A stretch of 64,000 nucleotides of DNA, taken from Tachypleus tridentatus (taxonomy: Eukaryota; Arthropoda; Merostomata; Xiphosura; Limulidae). The notes beneath the pieces were generated by a model that worked only from the letters and a program-made list of their open reading frames with translations, had not been told where the DNA came from and ran no database searches. Below, piece after piece: positions 1-45,100 of this stretch. Numbering within the stretch: position 1 is the first letter of the stretch; each line of letters opens with the position of its first letter. Location: the NCBI RefSeq assembly GCF_004210375.1, contig NC_134834.1, positions 152,553,009-152,617,008 on the forward strand, given 5' to 3'. The translations under genes were made by a program, and so were the position numbers.

Positions 1-2133
1 ATAGTAATTTTTAAGACATGTTGGTTTTGTGTATATCAATATTTTGCATCCTAAATAGCAAATTTGAAGAAAAAAAATTTTATACTATAAACCTGCTTAC
101 CAAAAAATAGGATTAAGGTACATTGGGACATCAGTTATTGAGAATAAGAGTCCTTACACAAGTTATGAATTTCCTATTTTTTTATTTATGCATATAAGTG
201 ACTACAATATAAACATTAGAAATTGTTAGATAAGAAAACTGAAAGGAAAAGTAAAAAATATGTTTGAGGAGAGCACAAACTGCTTCTGTGATATTTATTT
301 CAATACTTTTAACTTGCACTATGCTCTGGCTAGGTGAGTTATTGTTTGTTCTCTTACCCTAACTGAGCATTTAAACAGTTCAAAGAATATTAAAATAAAA
401 TTAAAGCAGTAATGAAGATGTTAGGATAAATAAGTGTAATTATGACCTAAAGAGGTTTTAGAAAAACAAGTGTAATGGGTTGAGTTTATTTCATATTTTC
501 AACTTTTACTGCAGGATGCTGTTGATACACTTAATGTTAGGATAGAGAAAATAAGTGATAAATTTAAAAGATATATACCACACTAAAACTTTTTACATTA
601 CTCAAGGAAGTCCTAGAGATTATGTAAATAAAATTTGAAAATGATAAAAATTATTTCCATGTTTAGCTTCAAATTTCCCTTTCACTCAAAGTAGTCCGAG
701 TTAGTGATTTTATTAAATTGATAGACTAATCTTTGGTAGAAAAACTTTATTAAACATTGATTTCTCATGTACAACCTCCTTGCATTGTTATTTAAAAGCT
801 TGCCAAATTATGTAAAGAACCATATAATTACTGTAAACAGTATTGTACATAGAATGATAAAAACCATATAACCTAAGTGCTTTTGTATGAAGACTTATTG
901 GACATCTATTTTTCCGAGTTTCACAGAAACAAGAGTTAGTTCAATGCACAAATGCCATGTACATATAATTGATGTGTCAAAGCAATTTAAGATAAATGGT
1001 AAATGCAAAATTCTATGAGTAATAACAGGTATGGTTAGTTAACATCTTTTCAGGAACGATACAAGCCTACCTTTGTCTGTTAAATGTCACCAGCAAAATG
1101 TTGGTGGACTGGCTTCAAAAATGTTTGTATTGGGGTTTGTAAATTGACTAACCTCATACCAATCATAAAAAAATTGGGAAATATAAATTGTTTTTCTCAT
1201 GCTAGAATGACTGCAAATTATAAAATGAAAATATGTTAAACTACTTACCCTAAAGTCTTAATGTTATATTATTTTCTATTATATTCACCTTCCAATTGTA
1301 CCTCGCTAACATTTACATAACTAGCAACATAACTTGCATTGATAAGATTCATGTGTGCTCATGTTACTATATCCAATAGTAAAAAAACTGACCTTTAGTC
1401 TTTACAACATGATCCTGTCTTGATCATGTTTTAGTGGACTAGTATTTTGTAATACTCAGTTATATTTCAGTTTCCATACATTATACATGTATTGATTATG
1501 ACTACTTAGAAATTAGTTATGGAACTTGTTTATTTATTGTTCTATATTTTAAGAAAAATACTGCTGTATATAGGTTGCTAAGCCTTCTAAAATTTTGCTT
1601 AGGGAGGATATCAAAGAATGTTTTTTAGGTTTTATATATACAGTTAAATAACCAAAATATAATAACATAGAATTCCACCATAACTTTATTAAGCATAGAA
1701 ACTAAAAACAAACAAACTTAGCAGATTAAAAATATAACCTACCTTGTTGAAATCTGTGTTGAAAAAAAATGTGGTGTGGTAGTCTTTTACAGATTAAAAT
1801 TGCTGATGAAAACCACTATGGGGACATTCTAAGCTGTTGACTGGTTATTATATTGAAGTGTATATAAAGGACAGTTTTATAACAAAATGGAAAGAGGTGT
1901 GAATGGGGCTACTGAGTTTGAGTCAGCACATAACCTATACCCTCAACAAAATAATAAAACAAAAACAAGGTTTTATATTATCTCTTTACAATATTGGTAT
2001 TTTAAGTTCCTGATTTGTACAAGACTACGACTTGAGTATTTTGAGATTACAAACATCTAATTTTAAAAAGTGCTGCATTCAATATACCAGATGACTTGCC
2101 AAAACTCTGTATTTAGGTGTTATTTTAATATCT
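1..2133. repeat. Second copy of a PRPF39 intron segment
   Basis: This stretch matches 49104-51220 almost base for base in the same orientation, by direct reading. Differences are a few substitutions, several one-base homopolymer changes, a 12-bp extra unit near 1320-1335 and some clustered changes in the last 300 bases. It holds no recognisable exon. Because it starts at base 1, the duplicated tract probably extends to the left of the window. It ends exactly at the N gap. Confidence 0.95.
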
Positions 2134-2633: not shown

Positions 2634-5600
2634 AAAATAACACAACAACATTTAAAATAACAGAGAGAGGTGATAAAATTATTAAAAATAACACAAGAAC
2701 ATTTAAAATATCTAAAAAAGTGATAAAGTGTAAAAATAACACAACAACATTTAAAATACAAAGTGATAAAAGGTATTAAAATAACACAAGGAACATTTTA
2801 AAATACAAAAAAAGAAATTATAAAAGTGATTAGTAAAATAACACTAAGAACATTTAAAATACAAAAGTGATAAAATTAGTAAAATAACACAACAACATTT
2901 AAAATACAAAGAAATTGATAAAATTGTAAAATAACACAAGAACATTTAAAATACAAATTGATAAAATTAGTAAAATAACACAAGAACATTTAAAATACAA
3001 TGATAAAGTGATAAAATGTGTAAAAGTAACACAACAACATTTAAAATACAAAGTGATAAATGTAGTAAAATAACACAAGGAACATTTAAAATACAAAGTG
3101 ATAAAATTATTAAAATAACACAACAACATTTAAAATACAAAAAAGTTGATAAAATTAGTTAACCACAACAGAACATTTAAAATACAAAGTGATAAAATTA
3201 TAAAGTAAAATAACACAACAACATTTAAAATACAAAAGTGATAAAATTAGTGTAAAATAACACACAACAACATTTAAAATACATAAAGTGATAAAATGTA
3301 TTAAAATAACACAAAGACATTTAAAATACAAAGTGATAAAATTAGTAAAATAACACAACAACATTTAAAATACAAAGTGATAAAAGTGTAAAATAACACA
3401 ACAACATTTAAAATACAAAAGATAAAATTAGTAAAAAACACAACAACATTTTAAAATACAGAAAGTGATAAAATGTTAAAATAACACAACAACATTTAAA
3501 ATACAAAAGTGATAAAGTGGCCAAAATAACACAACAACATTTAAAATACAAAGTGATAAAAGTGGTAAAATAACACAAGAACATTTAAAATACAAAGAAA
3601 TGATAAAGTGATAAAAAATAACACAAGAACATTTAAAATACTGAAAGTGATAAAGTGTAAAAATAACACAAACAACATTTTAAAATACTAAAGTGATAAA
3701 GTAGGCCAACACATTAAAATAAATACAAGAACATTTAAAATACACAAAGTGATAAAATTAGTAAAATAACACAAGAACATTTAAAATACAAAGTGATAAA
3801 GTAATTAAAATAACACAACAACATTTAAAATACTGAGAAATTGATAAAAGTTTTAAAATAACACAACAACATTTAAAATACAAAAGTGATAAAATTAGTA
3901 AAATAACACAACAACATTTAAAATACAAAAGTGATAAAATTGGTAAAATAACACAAGGAACATTTAAAATACAAAGTGATAAAGTGTAAAAATAACACAG
4001 GAACATTTAAAATACAAAAAGTGATAAAATTAGTAAAATAACACAAGAACATTTAAAATACAAAGAAAGTGATAAATTTAAAATAACACAGAACACCAAA
4101 ATAACACAAGAACATTTAAAATACAAAGGATAAAATTGATGATAAAGTGTAAAAATAACACAAGAACATTTAAAATACAAAAGTGATAAAATTGTGCCAA
4201 AAAATAACACAAGAACATTTAAAATACAAAAGTGATAAAATGTGTAAAATAACACAACAACATTTACATTTAAAATATAAAATGAAAAATTGAGGTAAAA
4301 TAACACAACAACATTTTAAAATACAAAAGTGATAAAGTGTAAAAAATAACACAAGAACATTTAAAATACAAAGTGATAAAATTGGTAAAATAACACAACA
4401 ACATTTAAAATAAAAAAGTGATAAAGTAATAAAATAACACAACAACATTTAAAATACAAAAGTGATAAAAGTGTAAAATAACACAACAACATTTAAAATA
4501 TACAAAAATTGATAAAATTAGTAAAATAACACAACAACATTTAAAATACAAAAGTGATAAAGTATAACACAAAATAACACAACAACATTTAAAATACAAA
4601 GAATTGATGATAAAATTAAAAAATAACACAACAACATTTAAAATACAAAGTAAAAGCCAAAATAACACAACAACATTTAAAATCTAGAAATTGATAAAAA
4701 AGTGATAAGGAGTGATAAAATAAACTACAACAACATTTAAAATACAAAGTGATAAAAGTAAGTAAAATAACACAACAACATTTAAAATACAAATGAAAGT
4801 GATAAAATAGTAAAATAACACAACAACATTTAAAATACAAAGAGGTGATAAAAGGTAAGTAAAATAACACAACAACATTTAAAATCTAAAAGTGATAAAA
4901 GAATAGTTAAGCCAAAATAACATAACAACATTTAAAATACATTTAAAAAAATTGATAAAATTAGTAAAATAACACAACAACATTTAAAATACAAAGTGAT
5001 AAAAAATAAAATAACAACAACATTTAAAATACTAAAGTGATAAAATGTGGCCAAAACAACAACATTTAAAATACAAAGTGATAAACACAAGAACATTTAA
5101 AATACAAAGTGATAAAGGTAAAATAGAAAACACAACAACATTTAAAATACAAAGATGATAAGTTAATAAAAAACACAACATACATTTGAAAAGAAATAAA
5201 AAGTTTAAAATAAAATAACATTTAACAACAACATTAAAAAAAATAACTAAACAAATTGATAAAAAAAAAAATAACACAAAAACATTTAAAATACAGCAAA
5301 TTGAAAATACAAAAAATAACACAACAACATTTAAAATACAAAGTGATAAAAAAAATAACACAACAACATTTAAAATACAAAGTGATAAAAAATAACACAA
5401 CAACATTTAAAATACTAGTGATAAAAAAAATTGATAAAAAAAATAACACAACAACATTTAAAATACAAAGTGAGGTGATAACAAAAAAAATAACACAACA
5501 ACATTTAAAATACTAAAGTGATAAAAAAATAACACAACAACATTTAAAATACAAAGTGATAAAAAAAATAACACAACAACATTTAAAATACTAAAGTGAT

Positions 5601-8293
5601 AAAAAAATAACACAACAACATTTAAAATACAAAGTGATAAAAAAAATAACACAACATTTAAACATTTAAAATACTAAAGTGATAAAATTATTGAAACAAT
5701 AACATTTGGTAACAACATTTAAAATACAAAATTGATAAAAAAATAACACAACAACATTTAAAATACAAGAGTGATAAAAAAAAAATAACACAACAACATT
5801 TAAAATACAAAGTAAATGATAAAAAAAATAACACAACAACATTTAAAATACAAAAGTGGTGATAAAACAACATTTAAAATACAAAAGTGATAAAAAAACA
5901 AACATTTAAAATACAAAAATGGAAATTAAAAATAACACAACAACATTTAAAATAAAATTGATAAAAATAACACAACAACATTTAAAATACAAAGATTGAT
6001 TGATAAAAATAACAAACAACATTTAAAATACAAAAAGTGACAAAATTAGTAAAATAACACAACAACATTTAAAATACAAAGTGATAAAAAATAACACAAC
6101 AACATTTAAAATACAAAGTGATAAAAAAAATAACACAGCAACATTTAAAATACAAAAATTGATAAAAATAACACAACAACATTTAAAATACAAAGTGATA
6201 AAGTGTAAAAATAACACAACAACATTTAAAATACAAAGTGATAAAGTAAAAATAACACAACAACATTTAAAATACTAAAAGTGATAAAATTAGTAAAATA
6301 ACCACAAAAACATTTAAATTTACAAATACAAAGTGATAAAAATATTAGTAAAATAACACAACATTTAAAATACAAACAAAAATGATTAAAATAAAACAAC
6401 AACAACATTTAAAATACAAAGTGATAAAATAATAAAATAACATTTAAAATACAATTGATAAAATGTAAAAAAAAACACAACAACATTTAAAATACAAAAG
6501 TGATAAAAAAAATAACACAACAACAACATTTAAAATACAAAGTGATAAAAAATAAAAACACAGCAACATTTAAAATACAAAGTGATAAAAAATAACACAG
6601 CAACATTTAAAATACAAAGTGATAAAAAAATAACACAACAACATTTAAAATACTAAAGTGATAAAAATAACACAGCAACATTTAAAATACAAAGTGATAA
6701 AAAGTAAAAATAACACAACAACATTTAAAATACAAAAAAAGTGATAAAGTGTAAAAAATAACACAACAACATTTAAAATACAAAAGTGATATAGGTAAAA
6801 TTGATAATAAAATAACACAACAACATTTAAAATACAAAAGTGATAAAGTGTAAAAATAACACAACAACATTTAAAATAAAAATTGATAAAATTAATAAAA
6901 TAACACAACAACATTATAAAAAAAAAATAACAAACAATTGATAAAGGTGTAAAATAACACAACAACATTTAAAATACAAAAGTGATAAAAAGTGTAAAAT
7001 AACACAACAACATTTAAAATACTAAAAGTGATAAAAATTAGTAAAATAACACAACAACATTTAAAATACAAAAGTGATAAAAGTGGTAAAATAACACAAC
7101 AACATTTAAAATACAAAGAAGTGATAAAAGTGTAGCCAAAATAACACAAAAATAAAACATAAAAATTGATTTAAAATAACACAAAGATAAAGATGAAAGT
7201 ATTAAAATAACACAACAACATTTAAAATACAAAAGTGATAAAGTGGTAAAATAACACAACAACATTTAAAATACAAAAGTGATAAAATTAAGTAAAATAA
7301 CACAACAAACATTTAAAATACAAAAGTGATAAAATTGTGTAAAATAACACAACAACATTTAAAATACAAAAGTGAAAGTGATAAAATAAGTGAAAATAAC
7401 ACAACAACATTTAAAATACAAAAGTGATAAAGTGGCCAAAATAACACACAACATTTAAAATACAAAAGAGTGATAAAATTGGCCAAAATAACACAACAAC
7501 ATTTAAAATACAAAAGTGATAAAGTAACCAAAATAACACAAACAACATTTAAAATACAAAAGTGATAAAGTGGTAAAAATAACACAACAACATTTAAAAT
7601 ACAAAAGTGATAAATTGGTAAAATAACACAACAACATTTAAAATAAAAGTGATAAAATTATTAAAATAACACAACAACATTTAAAATACAAAAAGTGATA
7701 AAAAGTAAAATAACACAACAACATTTAAAATACTAAAAAGTGATAAAATTAGTAAAATAACACAACAACATTTAAAATACAAAAAAGTGATAAAATTAGT
7801 AAAATAACACAACAACATTTAAAATACAAAAGTGATAAAAAAAATAACACAACAACATTTAAAATACAAAGAAATGATAAAGTAGTAAAATAACACAACA
7901 ACATTTAAAATACAAAAAAAGTGATAAAAGTGGTAAAATAACACAACAACATTTAAAATACAAAAAAGTGATAAAGTGGTAAAATAACACAACAACATTT
8001 AAAATACAAAATTGATAAAGTGGTAAAATAACACAACAACATTTAAAATACAAAATTGATAAAGTGTAAAATAACACAACAACATTTAAAATACAAAATT
8101 GATAAATTATAAAAATAACACAACAACATTTAAAATACAAAGTGATGTAAAAAAATAACACAGCAACATTTAAAATACAAAAGTGATAAAAAAATAACAC
8201 AACAACATTTAAAATACAAAGTAAAATACAACAACATTTAAAATACTGAAAAAGTGCCAAAATAACACAACAACATTTAAAATACAAAGTGAT
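2634..8293. repeat. Large AT-rich minisatellite array, 36-45 bp units
   Basis: A conserved core (AACACAACAACATTTAAAAT followed by ACAAA) alternates with a variable linker built on GTGATAAA. There are well over 100 units in direct orientation. Core variants include ACAAGAACA, common before about 4.4 kb, and ACAGCAACA. From about 5.2 to 6.6 kb the linkers are short (36-38 bp period); elsewhere they often carry ATTAGTAAA and reach 43-45 bp. Open frames across it, such as the minus-strand ones rich in Cys-Val-Leu-Phe, are a by-product of the repeat and are not genes. The scatter of small indels suggests either real divergence or uncorrected long-read sequence. Confidence 0.95.
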
Positions 8294-8527
8294 AATACTT
8301 GAAACATGCATTTATCAGAATTATGATAAACAGAAAAGCAATTAAAAGGATTAGAAATTTAAAGAAGGATGCATTTTCAAATATATGAAATATGCTGCTT
8401 GTATTGTTGAACATATAATTTTCTATTTCGTCTTCACTGTTCCGATCTTCCTTCTCCATTGGCAGTTCCTTTTCGTATATTGTCATGTTGATTTTCTTCC
8501 AGGAGATAATAGTTTTGTGTTTGTCAT
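8277..8527 (-). pseudogene. Tandem paralogue (copy 1) of a terminal exon for a short membrane protein
   Basis: The minus strand encodes a peptide ending in a hydrophobic segment (FFKFLILLIAFLFIIILI) followed by a short tail that stops inside the first minisatellite unit. It aligns along its length with copy 2 at 9284-9537: acidic Glu/Asp-rich region, FENAS motif, membrane segment, ACFKYY tail. The ATG homologous to copy 2 is at 8527, but a one-base deletion near 8486-8492 breaks the frame, so the open part starts at an internal ATG at 8486. Upstream a segment of about 280 bp, absent in copy 2, separates it from the splice-acceptor-like sequence at about 8829. It is either a decayed copy or affected by a sequencing error. 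I do not recognise the family. Confidence 0.5.
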
Positions 8528-9063
8528 CGCATGATAAATTTCTTCATATGAAGTTATGGTTTTTTTATGTTATGATATGTCTTTCTTATTTCGAGAATAA
8601 TTCTTTGTTATCCTTGGCTTCATGAAATGTTTCAAGGGGTGTTATAGCTGAAGGTTTCTCTGTGATTTATGAGAATAATATCTTTAATATACAAATATGT
8701 TCAGTTTTAATACAAGCAAATTAGTTAAATAATGTTATATATAAAGACTAAAATTTTATAAAGGATGGTTACAAATAGTCCTTGAAAAAAAATAGTACAA
8801 TCGCAAAGAGAAACTACCACATTCTGTAAAAAAAAACACGCATCAAATTAATGAAATAAGTACATGTGAAAGCTATTATAAAATATATCTTCAACTGCAT
8901 CATCTCTAAAAGTTAGTTTTGTACTGTTGAAATCATCTGGACTTTTCCACTTGAATGATTTAATCATATCCAGAAAAGCATCTGAACTATATTGCGTACA
9001 AATCAGTTAAATTAACTACTGCACGAGCTACTAATAATTTATTCAACATCAACAGTAGGACAT
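8285..9063 (-). repeat. Tandem duplication module, copy 1
   Basis: Most of this block recurs at 9290-10025. It includes the terminal exon, the splice-acceptor-like TTTTTACAG tract and about 200 bp upstream of it that are nearly identical in the two copies (8826-9040 against 9556-9762). Copy 1 carries about 280 extra bases at 8530-8810. Confidence 0.85.
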
Positions 9064-9537: not shown

Positions 9538-10025
9538 CTGTAAAAAAAACAAAAAAAAACACGCATCGAATTAATGAAATAAGTACATGTGAAAGCTATT
9601 ATAAAAAATATCTTCAACTGCATCATCTCTAAAAGTTAGTTTTGTACTGTTGAAATCATCTAACCTTTTCCACTTGAATGATTTAATCATATCCAGAAAA
9701 GCATCTAAACTATATTGCGTACAAATCAGCTCAATTAACTACTGCACGAGCTACTAATAATTGTTGGTGAAAATAAATGAGTTAAAGGTTTATTATAATG
9801 GAGAAGACAAGAACACTTTTAACGATAGGATATTTGAAGATTATTAAATTTTCATTATTTTTGCACAGATCATTGGCCAACTTTACATCAATACTGATAT
9901 ATTTCTCACAATCATTTTTATTGAAGTTCCACGTTAGTCCCCCGGCTTTTCATTTCAGAACAGATCAAAACAAGAATATGTATTGGTTCTTGTATGAAAA
10001 TTTATTCAACATCTACAGTTGGAAG
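9290..10025 (-). repeat. Tandem duplication module, copy 2
   Basis: This is the homologue of 8285-9063. It has a 238-bp segment at 9763-10000 that copy 1 lacks; both copies resume at TTTATTCAACATC. I recognise nothing in the extra segment. Confidence 0.85.
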
Positions 10026-14292: not shown

Positions 14293-15586
14293 AAAAAAAA
14301 AAATACACGGACTGACGTCATAAAACAAAAAGTACTTTATTTAGAAGTTACAGTTCTGGGACCCCTTCAAAGTACTCTCCTCCCCAACGCACACACTTAT
14401 CCCAACGGTGTTTCCACTTGTTGAAACAGTTCTGGTACGCTTCTTTTGTAATGTCCTCCAACTCCTTCGTCGCATTTGCCTTAATCTCGGGAATCGTCTC
14501 AAATCTTCTTCTTTTCAAGGGTCTTTTGAGTTCGGGAACAAGAAAAAATCGCAAGGAGCAAGGTCAGGTGAGTAGGGGTGGGGAAGAACAGTGATCGAGT
14601 GTTTGGCCAAAACTCGCGAGTTCTGAGGGCTGAAGCGTTGTCGTGATGGAAAAACCAGTCGCCACTCCTCCACATTTCTGGCCTTTTGCGACGGATGGCG
14701 TCCCTCAGACGTTTCAGAACTTCAATGTAGTAAGTCTGGTTCACTGTGGAGCCTTCGGGGAGGTACTCGTGGTGAACAACACCCTTAGCATCGAAGAAAA
14801 CTGTCAGCATCACCTTGACCTTGGATTGAACTTGGCGAGCTTTTTTTGAGTCTGGGGATGTTTCACCCATCCATTGGGACGATGGACCTTCGTTTCAATG
14901 TCATAACCATAAACCCATGATTCACCACCTGTTATGATCCTTGACAAAAGTTTTCATCTTCTTCTGAACGATCAAGCAGTTCCTGACAAACTTGGACGCG
15001 ATGGGCTTTTGTTCGTCCGTCATCAGGCGTGGCACAAATTTCGTAGCAACGCGGTGCATCTTCAATTTTCGGTCAAAATCTCGTAACAAGATCCAACTGA
15101 TATCCCACACTCGTCAGCAAGCTCCTGACAGTCAGACGTCGATTTGCCCGCACCAGGGTGTTGATTTTGTCGATTTGCGGGTCGTCAGTTGACGTGGAAG
15201 GACGTCCAGGATGCTCATCATCTTCAATGGACTGTCGACCATCCTTAAAACGTTCATGCCACTTGAAACATGCCGTACGATTCATAGCAACATCACCGTA
15301 AGCCGTGTTAAGCATAGCAAAGTTACAGTCGCAGATTTTCCAAGTTTAACACAAAATTTCACAGCAAGTCATTGCTCCTTCAGGTCATTCATTCTGAAAT
15401 CCGCCAAACGAAAAATCGCACTTCACTTAAAACCGCGTAGCTAATTCACAAATGAAGATATCTGCAATCGGGAAATGGCGTCGTAATCAGCTGATTGTGC
15501 GAACCTAGCGACACCAAGCGGATTCCCCTGGAACCAACTGGAGCCGCGCAATTCAAACAGTCCGCGTATTTTTTGAACAGACCTCG
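14293..15586 (-). mobile_element. mariner-family DNA transposon, broken
   Basis: The right terminal inverted repeat (15557-15586, ending before a TA) reads inward CGAGGTCTGTTCAAAAAATA then CGCGGACTG. At the left end only the inner part survives (AAAAAATACACGGACTG at about 14297-14314), preceded by an A-run. The transposase lies on the minus strand. TA dinucleotides at the borders fit mariner target-site choice. It is non-autonomous because of transposase frameshifts and the damaged left end. Confidence 0.88.
14348..15392 (-). pseudogene. mariner transposase pseudogene
   Basis: A DDE transposase of the Tc1/mariner superfamily catalyses cut-and-paste transposition in the nucleus. Recognisable parts in order are an N-terminal helix-turn-helix region (WHERFKDGRQSIEDDEHPGR and PSTSTDD), a linker (VRANRRLTVRSL), the first catalytic region (VYGYDIETK, NGWVKHP), the second catalytic motif (FFHHDNA), and the third (SPDLAPCDFFLFP, across a frameshift), then KWKHRWDKCVRWGGEYFEG to the stop at 14348. 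These lie in different frames and several stops interrupt the N-terminal region, so no intact protein is made. The motifs and spacing are those of mariner elements with a D,D34D-type site. Confidence 0.88.
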
Positions 15587-16925: not shown

Positions 16926-19900
16926 CGCCACTAATTCTAAGAACACCACCACTGTCACACAAACACAAGATTCTCCTAACTACAGAATTCCAACTCTGTT
17001 CATCGAAGGAGTAAATAACACAACACGCATTCCACAGATTGTCAAACAACTGAGGGCCTAGGTTTAAAGACATCAAACGTCTTCCTAATGGAAGAATCAT
17101 GCTTAAACGTTCCGAACCGCAATAGTTTGCAAATATTTTGGCCAACTGGCCCAAGGATGCCTTTGGGGTTCAAGCCACTATCACTACACCAAAAACCAAC
17201 ACACCAAAACTAACAGTCATAATCAGAGGTGTCGATTTCGACATCGAAGATCATGAAATCACTGACGAACTAATAACTCAAGGCTTTGACATTGCATCAT
17301 CAAACAGAATTATCTCATTCAGAACGAAACAAAAACGCCACTGATCAAGGCAACCGTCAACAAAAAAAGACGATCAGGACAAATTATTAAAAAAACGGTT
17401 GCTTTTTATTTTTCAAAAGACACACGACCGAACCGGAAAAACACACCAAAAACCCATTATCCAATGGTACAAATGTCAACGGTTCGGACACACAAAAACT
17501 AATTATATGGCCAAGGACAGATGTGTTAGATGTGGCGGATCTCACGAGGTCGCTCAGTGTCATAACGAACGTAACCAAGTGAGATGCGCTAACTGTCAGG
17601 GCCCCACGCAGCCAGTTACAAAGGCTGCCCCAAATACGCAACAGATTCCTTTTCAAAACCACGAACAATAATCAAACCCACGGCACCCACATCACCAAAC
17701 AACCTTTACTACCAACTCCAACTGACTCGCAAATCAAACACACTCAACCTCAACCAACACGTACTTACGCGGACGTAACACGCCCGAAAACAACACAAGC
17801 ATTCAACCCCACAGATTTCACCACAAACTTGCTAGCAATGCTGATAGAATTGAGTGATCTCCCCTCATTCGAATCGAGGCACGAGTCACTCAAGGCTGTT
17901 TGCAGCCTTGCAAGTTATTATTTTAACCTTCCTCACCTCAAACCACATCATCTTTCACTCAAAATTCATGCAAGGGAAATAAAACAACACATTAAAATCT
18001 TACACATCAACTGCCAAGGAAATCTCAAAGACAAAAAAATAGAAATATACAACATAAACAAACATATAAACGCCAACATAATCATCGTTTCAGAAACACT
18101 TTAAATAGAGAAACAAAACACCACAATCCCAGTTCATTACACACAGCATACCTCACTCAGAAAACAACAGGTATAATAGCTTACTTTAGTACGAAAATAT
18201 CGCATTTAATCTCGATAGAAGATTCCTTTAAATCTAACATCAATGAAACCATTTTTTGTAATATGCACGGCTAACTATTCCGATTCTAGCCATATATTGC
18301 TCATCAACCAAAGATATCGACATTAACTTCCTTCAAAATGTGTTAATCGTAAACCCAAACCAATTATTATTGGAGATGTTAATTCACCACACACAGAATT
18401 AAGGGGTAACAGAGACACACGCAGAGGATCGTGCATAAAATTTTTATCTCTAGCAATAAAATGCACCTAATTAATGACCATACACCTACACACTTCTCAG
18501 CCGCTAACGGCTCATACGATGTACTCGATTTCATCATCGCACCCAAGTCCATGGTCAACAGAATATCTAACTTTAAAGTGCATGATGAAATCACCAGTGA
18601 CCACTTCCCCATGTCATGTATGATTCACCCGCGCCACCCTGCTGTGGCGTACGTGACTCCTTCCGCATACACCTACACTGAAACCGACTGGCTCACTTTT
18701 AATGCCTCTCTAGACTCGTACCTACCCCATCAAATCGAACATGTAAATAACAAAACAGAACTAGACAACTATGTTGATCAAATTACAGAAGCCATAAAGA
18801 AAGCCATAAAAAACACAATTCCTAAATCAAAGAGAAAACAATCACTTATTCAATGGACTCTTAACACCAGAAATTCACGCACTAATAATCAAACGCAGAC
18901 AATTAAGACGAACACACTACGTCACACGCGATCCACACACTAAAACAGAAATCAATAGAACAAATACAAAAATAAAACAAGAAATTAAAAAAGTCAGAGA
19001 AAACAATTGGCATAACTTCTGTAAAAACTTAGAAAAAACCAAGAACAATCCAAAAGAATTCTGGAAAAAATTCAAGAGTATTGCTTCAGACAAAAACACA
19101 AATCACATGCTACAACATATCACACACAACAATAAAATCGCAAGGACGGACGAAGAGAAAGCTGACTTGTTAGCTGACTATCACAAATCCTCTTTTAGCG
19201 ATTTAAACTCGACACACAACACCAACACCATGTCAACAACTTCATAAATACAAACCAAGCTACATTCTCACCAGGATTCCCCAGCGAGACACTAAAAGCA
19301 TACTCAAGTTCAATCAATAGAAAAATAACCATAACCGAACTAAAAATTAATATCAAAAACTTTAAGAACACTTCCTCCGGACATGACCAAATACCAAATA
19401 TTATTCTGAAAAAAAGTTCCACTCTCCTACTACACCTCACAAACATCATGAACATTTCACTAGCGACCGGGTATTACCCTGACACGTGGAAAAAAGCCAT
19501 CATAACAACGATCCCCAAGAAACAAACTAATAGAACAAATCCAGATAATTTCTGCCCCATCAGTCTGTTAAGCTGCCTTGGCAAACTGATGGGAGAATTA
19601 TCTCAACAGTCTTCTCCATTTTGCGAATCAAACATCCTTCCAGAATCTCAAAATGCCTCCAGAAAAATAGACAAACAACAGATCACCTCACACGACTCAC
19701 CGAATCAATCTACAAAGCTTACAACAACAATCAAGTAACCATCGGGTATTCCTAGATGTAAAAAAGCATTCGACAGCGTTTGGCACAACGCCATCATATA
19801 CAAACTAAATCACCTACAAATAAATCCCATGATAGTCAAATGGATTTCAAATTTCTTAACCAATAGAACAGCACAAGTAAAGTCAATAAAACCATATCCA

Positions 19901-20615
19901 AATTATTTAATATAACGGCATGAGTGCCCCAAGGATCAGTCCTCTCTCCACTTCTATACATAATTTTCGTCAGTGACATACCTTTTCCAAATCTAACATA
20001 CACACACAATTGCAATGCATGAGCGACATCGCAATCTGGAGCACCTCCAGAAACCCAGTAATGGCCATGTCTCGCATACAAGAATCACTAGACAACGTAT
20101 CAACATGGAGCAACAAGTGGAGGGTCGTGTTAAATCCAACAAAAACACAAGCAATCACCTTCTATAGAAAACTAAAGAAGCAAAGAAAAAATCTAGAAAA
20201 ATAAAACTATCACTTGGAAACACAACCATTAACATGAGCAAAAACATCACATTCCTTGGCGTCACTTTTGACACAAAACTAACATGGAAAAAACACATAA
20301 ACAATATACACTCATCAATCAGAAAAGGATTTCATATCTGAAGACTATAACTGGTAAACAATCAAATGCACCAAACACCATTATACAAATATACAAGGCT
20401 TACATCCGTCCACTAATAGAGTACGGATGTCAAGTAACATACAATATGTCAAACAACACACTCCAGAAAATCCAAGTGCAACAAAACAGAATATTAAAAT
20501 CCGCATTCAGCCTACCATCATTTACGCCAACAAATTATTTACACCAAATTAGTAATTTACCAACTATAAGAGATAGAATAACAGAACTTTCTCTCAAATA
20601 TTATCTAAAAGCAAG
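16926..20615 (+). mobile_element. Jockey-type non-LTR retrotransposon, 5' and 3' truncated, degenerate
   Basis: Modules appear in the usual order. ORF1 is a gag-like nucleic-acid-binding protein with KLTVIIRGVDFDIEDHE and a CCHC cluster (CQRFGHTKTN, CVRCGGSHEVAQC, CANCQG) at about 17140-17670. An APE-type endonuclease follows, from about 17995 (ILHINCQGNL) to about 18625, with GDVNSPH and a C-terminal SDH motif in TSDHFPMSC. The reverse transcriptase runs from about 18960 to 20610 (FWKKFKSIASD, YYPDTWKKAIITTIPKK, FLDVKKAFDSVWH, GVPQGSVLSPLLY, TFLGVTFDTKLTW, IYKAYIRPLIEYGC). Frameshifts and stops break every module. At the FADD box the sequence reads CMSDIAIW, so one catalytic Asp is lost. The 3' end is missing; a different sequence begins at about 20616. 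Confidence 0.92.
17138..17671 (+). pseudogene. LINE ORF1 remnant (gag-like, CCHC zinc knuckles)
   Basis: Two overlapping open segments in different frames, 17138-17344 and 17399-17671, together give the ORF1 protein C-terminal half. The second has three Cys/His knuckles between about residues 25 and 75 of that segment. In this class the protein binds the element RNA. A frameshift near 17345-17400 separates the two. Confidence 0.8.
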
Positions 20616-20661
20616 TTGTTCCTCACCTGGTACTTGGTCTGTTTCAGTCTTCAGTTTTTGA
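19448..20661 (+). pseudogene. LINE reverse transcriptase remnant
   Basis: Three open segments (19448-19738, 20010-20204, 20284-20661) carry the fingers, palm and thumb of the reverse transcriptase. The first Asp box (AFDSVWH, near 19770) is present; the second is altered to CMSD near 20010-20025. The last segment runs through the element end into unrelated sequence. Confidence 0.8.
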
Positions 20662-27100: not shown

Positions 27101-30100
27101 CACCTTGAATCTGAGTATATTGGCAGTGTTGCAGCTGTGAAATATGTGAAGTTGGTTTTTCATTTACTGAGTGTTATGTCATTGGAACATGACGAATTTC
27201 AAAGCCAGTTCTATTTAACTGCCAAGTCAGTATACACTTGAAACAAACAGAAACTTGTGTACATTATTTTTTATGGTGGCATTACATTTGCCGAGATGGG
27301 TGTTATTTTTATTTACTACTTAATAGGTCGAACTACATGACTATTTGTCTTTGACTGTTAAAACAAGGTTTGGTTCAATTAGACACTCTTATACACAGCT
27401 TTCAGAAGGTTTGGTGTCTGTACACAAAGATTTTAGACATTCTTCTAACCTTTGCTTTATGAATACAATGTCACAATACTAGAACATAACTGCTTGGCAT
27501 TATGTAGGTCATGTTTAACTTGAATTACCTTCTGTTTGCATGCATAATCTACTCATGATGTTTCATGAGACTTTTATTTTTATCATATTATAGCTAATAA
27601 TTATGCATTAATCTGAATTCTTTTAACCCTTAATAATATAGGAGGGATTTTTTTGGATCTAGTTGTCAGGTTTTCTTATAGCCACTTCTATTTTTGTTTA
27701 AATGATTCTCTTGTTTTATATTATCCTTGATTAACTATCCTTAAACAATGTTTAGTGATACTGAATTCAAGAAAATTAGATGCTCTACATTTAGTATTTC
27801 ATTTACAAAATTGAAAGTAGTGTCATCCATCTATTATTAGGTTAAATGTGAAAAATATTACTTATCTACATATAACTTTTGGTGCTTTTGTATTTTTAAG
27901 TATCTTGGTTATAGTTGTGAGATTTTGAAGTGTTTTGGTCTTGTATTAGCGAGTTAAACTTTTTCTACTATCAGAAATTGCTGATGGTCCAGAGTCCTCT
28001 AAGAGTAAAACTGTGAAGAAAGGACTGAGTGAATTAGAAAAGTATTGGCAGGCAGTTAAGGATAATCCAGCAGACTTTACTGGATGGACTTACTTGCTAC
28101 AGTTTGTCGAACAAGAGGTAGGAAGTATCTGGATTTAAAACTGTTTTTTACCTTTTTAAATTATTAGTGGAGGATTATTATTAAATTCCATTATACCATT
28201 GTTTGTTTTATTAATGTCTTAACCATGAGTAATAAATATTAATTAGGTTTAAGTATTATTCCCGATGATGTTGCATGTTTTTTTTATTGCAAACTTTGAA
28301 CATTTAACTTGATTTATGCGAGTTCTTGTGTTTTGTCAGTAATGTTAATGAAGTAATTCATAATTCTAATAGATGCCATTCAAATTTTCTCTCAAGTAAT
28401 CTTTGTGTAATAGAAAAAAGAGGATGCTTAGACATTCATTTTCACAATAACCATTACAAGTTTCGTTTTCTTCTAGCACTATTGTTCCCAGATTTTATTG
28501 TAAATAAAGACCAAAAAAATTTGATAAAAATGTATTTCACTTTCTCATCACTATTTTCTAAGATGAGTGGAGACACCTTACAGCTGTTTCTCTGTCAATG
28601 AAACTACATCAGAGAAACACGTTTTTATCCGAGTTAACTGTAAGTGTGTTTTGAAACACAAATTTCTGAAATTTCCTTCAGAAAGAAATACTGTATTGTA
28701 TCTAAAGAATTTGACGTTTTCAGAATGACTTGGTGGCAGCTAGGGAGGCTTTTGACAGTTTCTTCAAATATTATCCATATTGTTATGGTTATTGGAAAAA
28801 GTATGCAGATATGGAAAAAAAATGGAATACTGCAGAAAAAGCTGAAGAAGTAAGTAACATCTTTGTACAACATTTTATGCTGTGTAGCTGAAACTTGAAT
28901 ATATTGTCATTTAAATAGGGTGCATTAATAAATTCATTTGTCATATTTAGTGTAACTTCAGGTATTACAGTTGGAAAGCTTATATAAAGACATACTTAGT
29001 CAATATTTTGTATTTTAAAGATTGTTTTTTGATAAGTAAGTATTGGATAGCTTGTACAAGGCAGTTTGCTTGAATTTGCAGTAATTTTGTGCACATATTT
29101 GTAACCAAGTAGTTTAAATTAAGATCTTTTTAATGATTTGTTGTAGAAAAGACATATATGGATCACTGTTTAATATATCTTAGAATTGTAAGATTTAGAT
29201 GATAATTTGATGCACTTTCTTTGGAGCTTGAGCAGTTTTTCTTATTTAAACTGACTTATTTAACATTTTCAGGTATTTGAGCAAGGATTGAAAGCTATTC
29301 CTCTTAGTGTTGATTTATGGATTCATTACCTCAACTTCTACAAAAATCAACATAAGAAAGATGAAGATTACTATACAAAAGTGAAAGTGTTAGTGTATTT
29401 TTTTTGTATTATGTATCACTGTATGATCTTTTTATCTGTTGTTGTCTTATTTTTTCCCTCAAATGACTTGTAATGTGATCAATGTTTGTCATAGTGTACT
29501 TGTAATGGTATTATAATAAAAATGTGAACCTTGATAAAAGAAAGTCTGAAATATTGTACATTGAAAAAAAACAAAAAACATTTGTACTGAAAGATTAAAT
29601 GTAGAACTAAAAGATGGCTTTAACCCTCTCTGCTGAACTTAGTTTGGTTAATGCAGAATTGCTTGTCACTGATATGTTAGCATGACAAAAAATTATTTAT
29701 CAGACATTATGTAATTAAATTTATAATTGTATTGCTATAATGGTAAATTGCCATGAACACAATGTATTCAACAAAATGACAAATATGATCCATTGGGATA
29801 TTGAAAAAAAGGGGTTCAAAAAAAAAAGCACAGAATTTGACATGCTTGTATATGATGCTGTGCCCAAATTGGGATGAGGGGGCACTTAACTTTGTCCAAG
29901 GTAGCTGCCAGAAAAGTTACTCAAAAATGTTCCTGCCATTTCTGAGATGGATATTGGAAAGTTGTTCATTTTTGATATCTTGTGTACTGTTATAGTTTTA
30001 TTTACTGTGAATGTGGAATTTGTTTTAAGACATACTTGTAATCCATAAATAAAATAATCTTAAAATAAATAATAATAAATATGTATTTTTTTTTTGCAAG

Positions 30101-33100: not shown

Positions 33101-36100
33101 AGATCTTATTTTGTGTAATTTGTAATGTATGCATTAGTTCCTGATATTTATTTTTAACATAATGCCAAAAAATACTAATAAATGACCAAGAAATATAGTT
33201 TTACAACACTTGTGGAAATTGGTCAAAATGGATCAGTATCATCATTCATTGTTTTTTGGCTAAGTTTATCAAGCAGTATGGTGAAATGAGTCTTGAAGTT
33301 AGTTTGTTTAAAAAAAATGTTCTGGTAGGGCTGGTTGGAGAAAGAACTAGAAAATTGTTTGTTGTTAGGAATAAATCACAAGTGAAGTCAAAACTAGGAG
33401 CAGTCATTAAAAAAGGTTAATTTGACAGGAAAAGCTTTATTCATGATATGTAATAAATTTGTAAGTTGTGCATCTTAGTGTTGCTCTACAACTTTGACAC
33501 ATGAAAGTAGTACAGTAACACAGAGAATTGTCAAATGATTGACCAGACTAGGCTTATTTTTCGTGAATTTTAAGGTACTGATATTTATAGAACATTTGAA
33601 AGCGAAAGGACAAGAGAATATTTCCAGGGAAGCATAACCTAAGACGGATGCTTCAGTGACCACTGAGACTCAAAATATATTTCAATTTTTTTTTTCCTTT
33701 GCCAGTAATAGTTGTAGACCCTGAATTTGAACTGACAGTTAGTTTGGTAGAGTTCACTTAAATAGCAACAGACACAAGTGTGAAGTTTGATTTATTTGAC
33801 AAACAAACTATCTTTTAAATTTCTAGGCTTTTGAACGAGCTGTTGATTCGGCAGGACAGGAGTTTCGATCTGATCGATTGTGGGATTTATACATCAATTG
33901 GGAATTGGAGAATAAGCACCCAAGAGAAGTTACACAGCTGTATGATAATCTTCTGAACATTCCAACACAACTTTATGTTCATCATTTTGAAAAGTAAGTG
34001 AGAACCTAACTGTCCATGTTGTGAACAAGAACGGATGCTGATGCATTTATTGTTTCAACATAATATGTAATAATATTTCAAATACAGCTTTAACCCTCTC
34101 ACTATGGTTAGAAGTACATGTCATGACATTTTAATCAAGCTATTGTTATCAATGCATATAAATAAACTTGGCATCAAAACATAGTTTAATAAATAAAATT
34201 TTAATATTACATAAGTTTTAATTTCAAAATAAAATCTCTTCTTCTATGTTTGCTACAGTTTTTGTTTTATACTTTTTTAATCATCTTTATTCTAATTTTA
34301 ACATAAGTTACTATTTATAGTACAAACATTACTAAATCCTAATCAGATTTTTCCAGGCTTCAACATTATTTATTTATAGGGAGATTAACTTGCAAAATCT
34401 CAACCATTGCCATGACAAATTATTACATTCTCTCTTTCACAAAATTATCAGTAATTATTTCTGTTTGCTGTTACAATTCATATTCCTTCTCAGGATTTTT
34501 TGTCATGCCACTGTCTTTCCTAGGTCGTACAAGATTTCCTGACACAACAGACTATTGAAACTGCCTCATGCAGTTCTGGGGAGTTTTACTGCACATATTT
34601 GTGGTTCCTAAAAGACTCATCTCAGTCAATATGTTCACTTCCCATACTTCGTTATGGAATCTTACCTTACTCTTTCATGAGTTTTCCTTCAGGTGTCTCT
34701 TTGAAGATAGATATTTCCAGTGCTTATCTGGGAATTATCGTGTGTTCTTGTCCTTTCATTTGGTTTGTCTGTTATAGGGTGGTGTACCAGTTATGTGCCC
34801 TACTATTTGGGATAGCTTTGTCACTGCAAATCTTTGTCTTCATGCCTGGGGTTGCTCTTTCACTGGTACATGGATATTCCTTTTCTTGCTCATACTGTCA
34901 TCTTTGTCAACACTGGAAGTGGCTCAGTTGGTCTAGTTCATCAAATTGGAGAAGTCATTTCTTCATTCTATCCAGTACCTTGTTCATTTGGGCCCAACCT
35001 TTTCTCTGGTTTTGTTCTATAGAACTGGCCATTTGGAATGCCTTGTCTGCTCATTCACTTTCTACTTGAGGTTCTATCACATTAGGAGATGCAGTCTTTG
35101 ACTTTTCTTGTATTTATCGATTGGGCTCATGTCTCTTCAATGGGTTCTACACAATCAGTAGTACCTTGCTGAGGATTCTTCATTGCCACATTTACATCTG
35201 GTCACAGATGCATCCCTATATTGGGATCGACTACTGAGTGGCTTTGGGTCATTTGGTCTATAGAGGACCATTTTTTTTCATGTTAACGTCCTGAAACACC
35301 TTGCTGTTTGTTGGTCTATAGATTATTTTCTTCCTGTCTCCAGAGATTTTATCCACTCCAACATTTTCAACAGTGGCATTCAATATCAGTCACCAAGGGG
35401 GCACCTGGTTGAGATCTCTTTTGTATTCTTACCTTTGATCTTCTCTTTTGGGCCCATCATGTTTATTTGATGGCATTTCATGTTCCTTGTGTTTTCAACC
35501 TTGTGGTGGATTGTCTTTCTCAAACAGACTGGCTTTAACCCAGTGGAGTTAGAGTAGTCCCTTCATCCCTTTGAGGGAGGTAGCAGATGCATTGAGACAA
35601 GGAGTACCCTACCAATCAGTCACCAAAAACAATCACCATTTACCTTTTGTTTGGATTCCCTGTTCCCTATTCTCAGGTAATGGCTATAAATATCTTCAAC
35701 TAGGATTGGAAGAACAAGTTTCTTTGTTTATCCTCCTATCTGATTACTTCATTGGGTAGTCTCCCTCACCAATGCAGAATCTTTCTGATTGCACCTTATT
35801 TTCCTGCTCAACTGTGATGTTTTATGGTTGTTGATGTTTCCAAGTTTCTTTTATGGCATTTTCAGAAGAAGGGTTTGGTCTCTATTGGGCAGCCCTATCC
35901 CATATTTTCCATTTTTCATTACTGCTGGATTCTCGTCCCTGTCCTTACACTTTTGATCCATTCTTTCTGGATATGCCAACTGCCTAAATGTCTGGCACTT
36001 GTGTATTAGGACACTAATGTTGTACTCACCCTTACTTTACCTCTGTTTGAGCCCAATGCTCTGTGCTCTTTGTTTCACCTATCCCTTAATGTGTATTTCT

Positions 36101-39100: not shown

Positions 39101-42100
39101 TTTTGTAATTGTGATAAAATATTTCTATAGATTCCAAGAACATGTTAAAAAACACCTACCAAAAGATTCAGTCTCAACAGATGAGTTTCTGGAATTCCGA
39201 AAAGAGTTTGTAACTATTAATGAGAAAGAAAAACTGATTCCTCCATTAGAAGATGAAGAGGAGGAGGCTCCTGAAGAGTCGGAGATGGAGATGCTGGTCC
39301 ACCTGGTGATGAAGCTCCCCCTGGTTTAGAAGATCCAGAGCAAGCTGACAAAGAAAAGGTTTATAAGATATTGTATTGTAATAATAATAATAAAAGTATT
39401 TTTAACATGGTGGTGGCAGAGAAGCAAGGTAAAAAAAACAACAACAAAGTAGTTATTTACTAGTTTGAAATTATATTTTTCTGAATTTTGTGATATAAGG
39501 CTAGGTGAACTGACATCCTTAGTATTAAGTTATTTAATGCTGGTTTGTTTGTTTTTTTCAAATTGAAGTGATACTTAAATTGAAGGTTAATTCTTTTGTG
39601 AAGACACTGCTCATTTTAGTAATTGTTACTCACACAAAGGATTAATCTTAGCAAAATTAAAATCAAAAGCTTTACAAGTTGATGACTCCTTCTATACTTG
39701 GTCATGAGATTTTATATTTGTATAAATTTCATCTTCAGATGAATGATGAAGAGACTAAGTTTTTGAGGGAGAAAATTATTGAGAAGAGAAAAGAAATATT
39801 CAGGAAAAATGAAGAGGAGGTTGGAAAACGATGGAATTTTGAAGAAGGTGTAAGTAACATGTTTTTTACAATAACTTTTCCTTAAGTTTAGAACTTGAAA
39901 TATCTTTACTTGGGTTATAACTAGTATGTTTATCAGGCCTTTAAGTATTCAGTTTATTAGAAATATATTAATCTGAGTAAGGTAGAATTGGTAACAGAGC
40001 CAGTTTATGCTTTTTCTTAGTCAGTGATACAGTTTTGGGTTAATATGGGTTTCTGATTGTATGATTTTGCTTTGTGCATAGTTTTTTTTGTCAACCTGTA
40101 TTTTTTTAGCTTTTATGACATGATCTAGATCTGTTTGGGTAAATTTGTATAACCATAAGATTTTTCTGTATATAATCCACCTGTATTTTCTGTAGTTTTG
40201 TGATAGTTCTGCATACTAGAAAAGTATGGGTAACATAAGTAGCTAATGTAATTTTGACTTTTCTTCACATAAACTCTATCTTTTAGATGAGTAGCTTACG
40301 TAATGTTGAGACTTCTGAATGCAACCTAAATCTGTAAGATGATTAATTTGCATTGTCTAGTGACTTTTTTGTAATCTAGATCTGCATGATGGTGAGCTTG
40401 TCATTTTGCACATAATTCAAATCTCTTAAGATACCTTGTGTAATTATATTCTTCACTTTTGTTCTGTATGTAATCCAAATCTATTAGATGGATACAATCT
40501 TGTGATTCTTCTTTATGCAATCTAGGTCTTTTAAGGTGGGTAGCTTTTATTGTTATGTGATTATTTTTATAAGTGACATAGCAGCTCCTAAGATGGCTGA
40601 GTTTTTGTTTTTTCAGATGTAAACTTTCAGCACATAGTTAAATCATTTCTTGGCTGATTTGATATACAATTAAAGTTTTGGACTTAGGAAGTTGAACCCT
40701 TTTAAATGATGTATTTGACCATGCCTAAGGTCTTGTAGGTTAATTTACTGTAATTCTACCTAAAAGACTGGTAGAGATCCTGATGAGTAATAAAATTGTA
40801 TTGAGTGTATGCTTTTGTATTCCTGGTGTACAAGATACATAGCTAATAAAACAGGGAAAAAAGTCTCGTATATTAGATTTCTCTAATCCTGCCCAAAAGA
40901 ATTTCAAAGGCCATGGCTTTTAAGGATTCCTTCTTGTTTGTATTAGGTCTGTAATATGGTATTCTTATGTTTTGTACATTATTTGTATTCTATATGTAAA
41001 CTCAGTGTATAAGATCTTTGTATGCTTACTTTCTATATTATAACACTAATCTTTCTTCCCTTCATTATTAGGCAACAGTACAATTTAACAGATTATCAGT
41101 AAGAGATGTTTGATTCTTGTTTTTTCAGATTAAAGGCCATATTTTCATGTAAAACCATTGGAGCGGGCTCAGTTGAAGAACTGGAGAGAATATCTAGATT
41201 TTGAAGCTCAGAATAGCACACATGAAAGAACTGTTATTTTGTTTGAAAGATGTATGATAGCATGTGCTCTGTATGAAGATATGTGGATGAAGGTAGTGTT
41301 TGTTTGTCTAAATAGGAAATTATTTCTGTTGTGAAATTTTTAAAGTTTTAATCTTAAAGTGGGTTTCTAATTTTACCTTAATATTTTTAGTTAATTCTCA
41401 CATTTGCGATTTGTTTTAAGAAAAATACTTCAGTTATAAATGAGATCTATTTAATGGGCTACTTACAAGTTAAGATTTGTTAAGAGTTCAAAGTATTAGA
41501 AATATTGTCACAAATATTGATGAACTTAAACATCAAATTCTAGATAAAAGCCTTTGGTAGTTGGGGGTACTTAGCTTACTTACTGCCTTTCTTCTGATCA
41601 CTAGTTAAAATTAGTTGTAAATGTGTACCTAAAGAACATTTACCTCATGTTTTATAGTTTGTTATTAAAATTTAAAAAATATAATTTTAGATAAACATTT
41701 TTAACAGAAATTACATTAAATTACTTACTTTTGTAATAATTGTTTACTGTGATTTAATTTGGTGATTTGGTTAAATGTGCTGGGATAAGAAATGGCTAAC
41801 ATATTTTTAGTATACTTAGCTAAGATTAAGTGCATGATTATGGAAACTTGTGTAATCTGTTACAAACAATATTTCTTAATAGGTGGAAGACTTTTGTAAA
41901 AACAAAATTAGTCATTTTATTCAGTTGGTCTTCAACCTTCTCACCTTTTTTAATTTTGAAAATAATGTTACAGAAAAATGTATCAAGACTATTCATTGAT
42001 CCAAGTGAACAAGTGCTTGAGATTTTTTTTTTTTTTGAAGTGGCTATAAATTGTATTTTGAACATTGCTTTAGGCTAGTATTTAGTGTTTTATGTTGTAA

Positions 42101-45100
42101 GGTATTATCACCAGCATGATATTTAAATATAAATCAGTTGCCCTACATTTGGAGAAACGTCTTGGTTTTGAAATATTTAGGCTTAAAAATTTGTACATGT
42201 TATGGTTAATAGTAACATTGCAGTTTTAACTGGGAAAAGTTTAATATTCATTTATATCATGAGTGTTCACCAAATGATTGAACATTTGGTTTAGTACTTA
42301 GATTACAATATATCTTTATAAATATAGTTACAAAATTGTAAAATAGTTCATATTAATAGTATTTTTTTTAATGCAGTTGTGTTTTGTGAAAATGTATAGT
42401 TGAAATAAAAGCCATTGTTCTTTGTTTCACAGTATGCACGATACATGGAAAAACATGGACCAGAAGCTGTACGGGATGTTTATAGGCGAGCTTGTACCAT
42501 CCATTTACCAAGAAAACCAAATATAAATCTCTCTTGGGAAGCCTTTGAAGAAAAATATGGTGAGATATAATGAGGGTGTTCAGAAAGAAAGAGAGCTTTA
42601 TTTCTTATAGACAAACTGTAAAGTAAAACAGTGCAGGTGCATTTAAGTGTTGCACATTATTCCATTGTCTCATGAAATTTTTCTTGCCAGTTATGTACTT
42701 GTTGATGTGGTGTTACAAATGCAGCAGCAGTTAGGTGTTTTAAAAGTTTCAGATGTTTGGAAGTGTTGTCTAAACAGATGGTCCTTGAAAGGATGGAAGC
42801 ACACAGTTCTAGGACAGGACTATATATTGGATAGAGAACACGTGTGTGTGTGTGTGTGTGTGTATACATAAAACATTTGCAATTTTAATATGATGAGCAG
42901 TAAAGCCTTGCAATATTATTGTAAAGGGCATAATGTAGCAGTTTGTGGATATTGAACTAATAACAGTACTTCGTAGTTACATATCTGTCCAGTGTAAAGT
43001 AAAAATTGTTTTTGTGAATGCTCCTCAGTTTCAGTTGTGTGAGGGGAAAGAGATACAGGTATTAATAAATTCTTAGAATATTAATGGTATCATAAAACAG
43101 TTGCTTTGTGTGATATATTGCATTACATGACAGCACACTGTGCTATAAATAATGTTTAATTATATTCATAATGGCAACTTTTATTGCTATCACAGTATAG
43201 ACAAAGTTAGCATTATTTAATGATGAGAGCACATTTCTAGTCTCGCACATATTTGTAAAGTTGTTGCTTCAAACTCGTATACAAATATTTGTGAAGTGAC
43301 ATTTGATTTGCAGAGTTTCAAACTTTTGTAGCTGTAAGAAAAGAAACTTGATGCAAATAAATGTCATTTTTATTTTTTAAAGTGGTCTAAGTAAAAAGTT
43401 TGTTTACCTTATTACCTAATATAAATTTCACTTTAATTTTAAAATACTAAGAACAATATTTCCAAAATATTAATTTCTCTACTCTGATTTTATATCACAA
43501 ATCCCTAAAATAGAGATCACATTACACTAAAATTAACAAAATCAAAGCATAAGAGCAAAATGCTAGCTTGTGTGCTTTTCATTTGATGAGTCATGTTTTA
43601 TGTTGGAAATTTTGTAGTCCAAATAATTTGGGACATCTGTTTAGTGGCATGTACAGTATCAGACAAGTCTGCAGTATTCTTATTTTTAGTTGGTTGTGTA
43701 CTGATATGCAAAGTTGTGTATTTTTGGAAATTTCTAATATATTTATTTCAAGGATGTGTTTCTATAATATAAATTATTAATATGGTAAACAAATTTAACT
43801 GAGGCATAAAAATAGTAACTTGCTGATTTCATTAATATTATCAGTTGTAAGGCCATAAAACAGTTTACTATTTTGCATAATTTTCTTAAAATGAGTTATA
43901 TAAAAGAAAACTGGGTTATAACTGTTGCTGCAGCTTCAATCTTTCCAGCTATTTGTGTTTGACACAAAGCTTGATCAAAACCAACTTTTAATAGCCTGAG
44001 GGTAGCAGTGCTGTGGTATTTGAGTCATATTTCTAACTTCACAACTGCTTAGTGACTACAACAGCATAAATTAACAATATGTCACAAAAGAAAAAACCTG
44101 TTTGCCCAGTGGATGTTACATTCTGGTTCATTTTATCATAACATTTGAATGGTTTAGAAAAGTATGTAGTAAATCAGAATATTTTTTCTACAACTAATAG
44201 CAAGAAATGCTAACTTTTCCAGGCCTGTTTCCTTGGCTGTGGTTTTGCTAGATAGTAGGTAGGGACATTGGGACTCTCATTAATCAACATCGTAACAAGT
44301 CGGTGTTCTTTATTATATAGAGGTTTATTGAATATGTAAGTCTTCTAGATTATGATATCTTCCAATTGCATATTTGTTTTTCCTTATTTTGAAAATTTTA
44401 TTTTAAGAATAGTAGCTGTAATATAAACATTGCCATTTTTTATTATTTTCTTCACTACAGTTGAATAAGAAGAGTTGTTCAGTGTATTTGACTTACATTT
44501 ATTGTTCAGGTAACTATGAGGAAGCTTCAAAAATTCTCTTGAATCTTGAACTTAATATACCAGACCTGCTAGAGGCAAAACTTAGAAGGATTAATGTTGA
44601 GAGGAGAAGAAAAAATTACAATGAAGTGGAGTCTTTGTACAAAGAATGCATAGAAAAAGCAAGAAATACTCGCATGGCCTCCCATTTTGCAGTAAAATAT
44701 GCCAGGTTTTGTTACAAGGTAAAAAAATTCTTGTGTGATTAACTTGAATACAATAAAGCATTAGTATATTGCAGTCAAGTGCAGTGTTTAACATATGTGA
44801 TATTATGGTGAATTTTTGTACTTGTTAACTAAGGTGTCAGTTTCTTAATGCTCATATAGTAAGGTTTTAACTGTGTTGTCTGGATGGGTGCATTCCACCC
44901 TGATGGAAAAATCACATCATTGAATTAAATAAATTATAGAGAAAAAGATTTATAATAATTCTTTCAGATTTGAAGGTTATTCAGTAAAAAGGTTTTAATT
45001 TGATTTTGTGCATGTATTTGGACTTAGGGTTGATTTCAGTGAAAATAGTAGCGTTTATAAATATCTGAAAAATTTTCTGTTGAAAATTAAATAGTCTTTA

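Follow-up and report, generated by a model that had tools for sequence, protein, structure and literature searches.

The window analysed here is a stretch of 64,000 nucleotides in which two contigs meet at a gap, with predicted exons of a PRPF39 gene to the right of it. It was read together with 100 kb on each side as a region R of 264 kb (G000:C10:152453009-152717008), within which the window occupies R100001-164000; positions below are those of the window unless prefixed by R. Repeats across the region were found by 24-mer chaining over the joined 264 kb, and R contains three gaps of 500 N each. One stretch is present in three copies: copy 1 in the left contig (R53643-102133), copy 2 in the right contig (R102634-151220, which is window 2634-51220) and copy 3 outside the window (R214227-239586, which is G000:C10:152667235-152692594). 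A 44-bp satellite array lies upstream of all three. The main features are as follows.

R46642-59080: satellite array before copy 1, 12.4 kb, 44-bp period
1-2133, + strand: end of copy 1, up to the final base of the left contig; 98.55% identical to 49104-51220; copy 1 starts at R53643 (window -46357)
2134-2633, no strand: scaffold gap of 500 N between two overlapping contigs
2634-8295, + strand: satellite array opening the right contig, at least 5.7 kb; aligns with the end of the copy 1 array, degraded
8296-51220, + strand: copy 2 to the right of its satellite, carrying the detected PRPF39 exons, from alignment to copy 1
50232-51349, + strand: old dispersed element, relatives at 73-79%; the points homologous to the two contig ends (51220 and 50633) fall within it
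R180930-214230: satellite array before copy 3, 33 kb, also scoring at a 132-bp (three-unit) period

Matches to Pfam HAT_PRP39_N and HAT_PRP39_C were found exon by exon in copies 1 and 2, and also in copy 3 except for the first exons. The joined exon peptides match the solved PRPF39 structure 6g70 (E 8.4e-66). These HAT-repeat exons identify the gene in the copies as PRPF39. The exons detected in copy 2, with their state in the other copies, are listed below.

28010-28120, + strand: PRPF39 exon, HAT_PRP39_N, start approximate; copies 1 and 2 the same, absent in copy 3
28721-28852, + strand: PRPF39 exon, bounds approximate; copies 1 and 2 the same, absent in copy 3
29270-29380, + strand: PRPF39 exon, bounds approximate; same in all three copies, the deletion in copy 3 stopping just 5' of it
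33827-33997, + strand: PRPF39 exon; copy 2 lacks one T of the run at 33828, a frame shift relative to copies 1 and 3
39754-39858, + strand: PRPF39 exon, bounds approximate; same in all three copies
41131-41292, + strand: PRPF39 exon, HAT_PRP39_C; copy 2 lacks one A of the run at the exon start (41131), a frame shift relative to copies 1 and 3
42430-42573, + strand: PRPF39 exon, bounds approximate; same in all three copies
44509-44736, + strand: PRPF39 exon, possibly with the first intron bases; one A missing from a run in copy 1 (44654), shifting the frame relative to copies 2 and 3
48194-48380, + strand: last detected PRPF39 exon, ending at a GT donor

N-terminal exons of PRPF39 are matched a second time on another contig (G000:C13:7512979-7514307), with exon spacing like that in the window and an in-frame stop in one of the three matches.

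Contig overlap across the gap

Window 1-2133 is repeated in direct orientation at 49104-51220 with 98.55% identity; the 2137 aligned columns contain 7 mismatches and 24 gap bases in 11 gap openings. The repeat is real and far beyond chance. A preliminary description of this DNA had put the identity at about 98% and placed the end of the left copy at the gap, and both points are borne out. It had also described the differences as mostly single-base indels, together with a 12-bp unit and a clustering near the gap, and this too is borne out; the unit is that at 1315-1326, and about a dozen differences fall at 1762-2123, next to the gap, compared with five at 1-1700. Its assignment of the repeat to a PRPF39 intron is plausible but unproven, as the last detected exon ends at a GT donor and a terminal exon was not found when sought by a motif. 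Extension of the sequence to the left, which it had suggested as a way of finding PRPF39 exons, placed the detected exons in copy 1 as well. No exon preceding the one at 28010 was located.

The match at 1-2133 is part of a far longer one. R53643-102133 and R102634-151220 form a single colinear alignment of 49,011 columns at 97.2% identity (446 mismatches and 452 gaps over 49,007 columns under other gap costs), so that 48.5 kb preceding the gap aligns with 48.6 kb following it, both gap-flanking bases included. Since the alignment uses the last base before the gap and the first base after it, the repeat at 1-2133 is the tip of an end-to-end overlap between the two contigs. The joining of these bases in one alignment argues for a false duplication, although the same exact overlap to both contig ends would arise if a gap interrupted a true tandem copy.

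No comparable overlap was found at the two other gaps in R, neither of which is crossed by a chain of at least 60 low-copy 24-mers; within the sequence read, this also favours false duplication. At the first of them BLAST gave a 794-column match in opposite orientation (75.6%) and two matches, of 130 and 169 columns, that reach 90% identity or more. At the second, matches extended only up to 276 columns at 78-89% and look like dispersed repeats.

The genome (2.17 Gb, 205 contigs) was searched with window 1-2133, the best 40 of 5511 first-look candidates being scored, which makes the list of matches a lower bound. Besides itself and the right copy, the query found a third place, G000:C10:152691065-152692594 (98% over 1-1544). 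The remaining matches listed (at least 59 in all) are at 63-77% identity, except for pieces of 35-37 bases at 92-95%.

Differences between the copies

Between copies 1 and 2, the 41,162 columns outside the satellite array contain 76 substitutions (0.18%). There are also 175 indels, of which 143 are single-base; 106 of these 143 lie in runs of 5 or more. So low a rate of substitution, with indels outnumbering substitutions, is evidence for false duplication. Copy 3 allowed the differences to be polarised. Over 24,999 three-way columns, private substitutions number 200 in copy 3, 38 in copy 1 and 15 in copy 2, so copies 1 and 2 are much closer to each other than either is to copy 3. The ratio of private one-base deletions to private substitutions is 21:38 for copy 1 and 41:15 for copy 2, compared with 16:200 for copy 3; tested against copy 3, the Fisher P value is 3.5e-7 (copy 1) or 3.9e-23 (copy 2). 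Private indels of all kinds total 38, 49 and 51 in copies 1, 2 and 3, respectively. Unpolished long-read consensus carries errors of the one-base-deletion type, and the excess in copies 1 and 2 may be read as such. Poorly polished but true near-identical copies could also yield such deletions. Homopolymer spectra give no visible sign of shorter runs in copy 2 (runs of 8 or more per kb: X1 0.91, X2 0.93, X3 0.87), which counts against false duplication, and the deletion excess is thus a result of the aligned comparison alone.

Not all the differences have the appearance of errors. Of the 53 private substitutions of copies 1 and 2 together, 45 lie more than 10 bp from any indel (32 in copy 1 and 13 in copy 2), as would also be seen in a recent paralogue. 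Three indels longer than 5 bp separate copies 1 and 2 outside the array: the 12-bp unit, a (GT)9 run and a 6-bp unit. These, like the substitutions distant from indels, look like true variants rather than read errors, and they too would be seen in a recent paralogue.

Over nine stretches of PRPF39 exon (1,349 columns), copies 1 and 2 show no substitution but four one-base deletions, all of them within runs: those at 33828 and 41131 are in copy 2 and those at 44654 and 44721 in copy 1. The base is present in copy 3 at all four. Three of the deletions (33828, 41131 and 44654) are coding, while that at 44721, a second missing A just after a possible GT donor, may be intronic. This pattern favours false duplication and counts against a true recent tandem duplication, as both copies carry frame shifts in detected exons.

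The satellite is the most divergent part of the alignment, with about 370 of the 446 substitutions between copies 1 and 2. That the copies differ far more here than elsewhere stands against false duplication. The array opening the right contig is degraded, matching its own 44-bp consensus at only 75% with 14% indels. The aligned part of the copy 1 array matches at 88% with 7% indels (85% and 9% over the whole array) and the copy 3 array at 89% with 4% indels. Such degradation where the right contig begins, and a clustering of differences towards the end of the left contig, are both consistent with false duplication.

Copy 3 is 25 kb long and lies on the contig of copy 2, 63 kb past the end of copy 2 with no N between them, and runs right up to the next gap. 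A stretch of 15.8 kb is missing from it, and with it the first two detected PRPF39 exons; the junction is clean and falls immediately ahead of the following exon. The order of array then PRPF39 is repeated here, at a spacing of 89-104 kb. Its position on the same gap-free contig as copy 2, its own substitutions and its own breakpoints are marks of a true duplication, and copy 3 is probably a real, older, partial tandem duplicate, a chimeric contig being a possible alternative. Its divergence is uneven: 91 of its private substitutions fall within the first 3,684 columns, while the remaining 21,315 hold 109. Its exons have no private substitution in 1,106 columns, where 8.8 would be expected from its overall rate, so they may be constrained or converted. 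This is a weak sign, as constraint on the lineage of copies 1 and 2 or gene conversion would give the same result and the divergence is uneven.

Origin of copies 1 and 2

The preliminary description had offered two options for the repeat, a large tandem duplication containing PRPF39 and continuing to the left, or a second haplotype kept by the assembly as false extra sequence. As the first option predicted, the match extends leftwards and takes in the detected PRPF39 exons, but the evidence favours the second: the overlap of the contigs is exact to their ends across the gap, the differences are error-like and homopolymer deletions occur in the exons of both copies. False duplication, whether of two haplotypes or of one haplotype assembled twice, is quite probably the explanation, judged on the sequence. 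Copies 1 and 2 would be two assembled versions of one place that were left unmerged, most likely two haplotypes, and set end to end with a 500-N spacer, so that 48.5 kb including PRPF39 would be counted twice. The assembly path may have split at the satellite array and rejoined at about window position 51220, so that the left contig would end in one branch and the right contig begin with the other. The overlap across the gap, the near-identity of the copies, the error-like indels and the frame shifts were observed, whereas the history of the assembly graph, the use of Hi-C scaffolding, half depth and allelism of the two versions are inferred.

A true recent tandem duplication is unlikely but accounts for some of the evidence. 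It would consist of two or more units of about 100 kb (array, PRPF39 and downstream sequence), with the downstream part of copy 1 collapsed into that of copy 2 and the gap hiding tens of kilobases. Copy 3 suggests that real duplication has also happened at the locus, and its repetition of the array-then-PRPF39 order at 89-104 kb, on the contig of copy 2, is what such units would produce. Furthermore, the left contig (ending in copy 1) and the right contig (ending in copy 3) stop within 587 bp of the same homologous point (R151220 and R150633), as collapse of a repeat would give. Both points count against false duplication. The two contig-end points lie, however, within the dispersed element at 50232-51349, which might by itself break an assembly; relatives at 73-79% among the sequence examined indicate that the element is old. 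A young high-copy repeat as the cause of the shared contig end is a weak candidate, given those relatives. Tandem duplication would also require at least about 30 kb to be hidden in the 500-N gap, the very site at which the junction from copy 1 to copy 2 is expected, and the copies differ mainly by error-like indels.

There is a smaller chance that the false duplication is of a single haplotype, error-rich reads having given a second, unmerged version of the same molecule. The degraded satellite with which the right contig opens would follow from this, as would the many one-base homopolymer deletions. The substitutions distant from indels in both copies and the three longer indels that look like true variants would not, and they favour two haplotypes over a single one read twice.

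A genuinely expanding tandem array at the locus, built of units of about 100 kb (satellite, PRPF39 and downstream sequence), is quite improbable. It would hold two very recent copies and an older one that lacks the first detected exons and whose remaining exons are held by selection or gene conversion, in which case a core splicing-factor gene would vary in copy number.

In the available text of Ko et al. 2022 (PMC9516828), the marks of false duplication include a gap that separates the two members where they share a scaffold, and such a gap separates copies 1 and 2, which speaks for false and against tandem duplication. The false heterotype duplications described there resemble the present case in their near-identical adjacent copies on one scaffold, colinear here, with a gap between them and an inflated gene copy number. 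They differ in that an older partial copy is also present here; half read depth on each copy and haplotype-specific single-copy k-mers would further be expected of such a case. In Aedes aegypti AaegL5, according to the part of the report available (PMC6421076), contigs overlapped through undercollapsed heterozygosity after Hi-C ordering, and gaps were taken as 500 bp for scaffold statistics. The overlap of contigs after scaffolding is alike here, and the likeness in pipeline consists of the 500-N gap size alone. A 3D-DNA assembly with 500 Ns between contigs is likewise described in the accessible text of PMC10320752, and the gap size suggests that the present assembly may have been built by Hi-C/3D-DNA scaffolding of this kind. 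Tandem segmental duplications are matched by copy 3, a diverged and rearranged copy on the contig of copy 2; copies 1 and 2, in contrast, have no sequenced junction between them.

If the duplication is false and left uncorrected, one false PRPF39 gene and about 48.5 kb are added to the assembly, and the frame-shifting differences in both copies could be misread as those of pseudogenes. The case illustrates how a contig overlap can be told from a duplication by polarising the differences with a third copy. Copy 3 itself is worth a normal annotation note.

Other features of the window

A direct repeat of 212 bp (8828-9039 and 9551-9762, 96% identity) lies immediately to the right of the satellite, with a matching pair in copy 1. 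On the minus strand, 14502-14894 encodes a transposase fragment (Pfam Transposase_1), which we take to be of mariner type. The open frames at 17583-20661 resemble a non-LTR retrotransposon, with one weak endonuclease match below the cutoff. No tRNA or Rfam match at gathering score was found within the window. Downstream of copy 2, a 63-bp tandem repeat is present at 60617-61100 (7.7 copies, 94% match), one frame of which is open for 149 codons.
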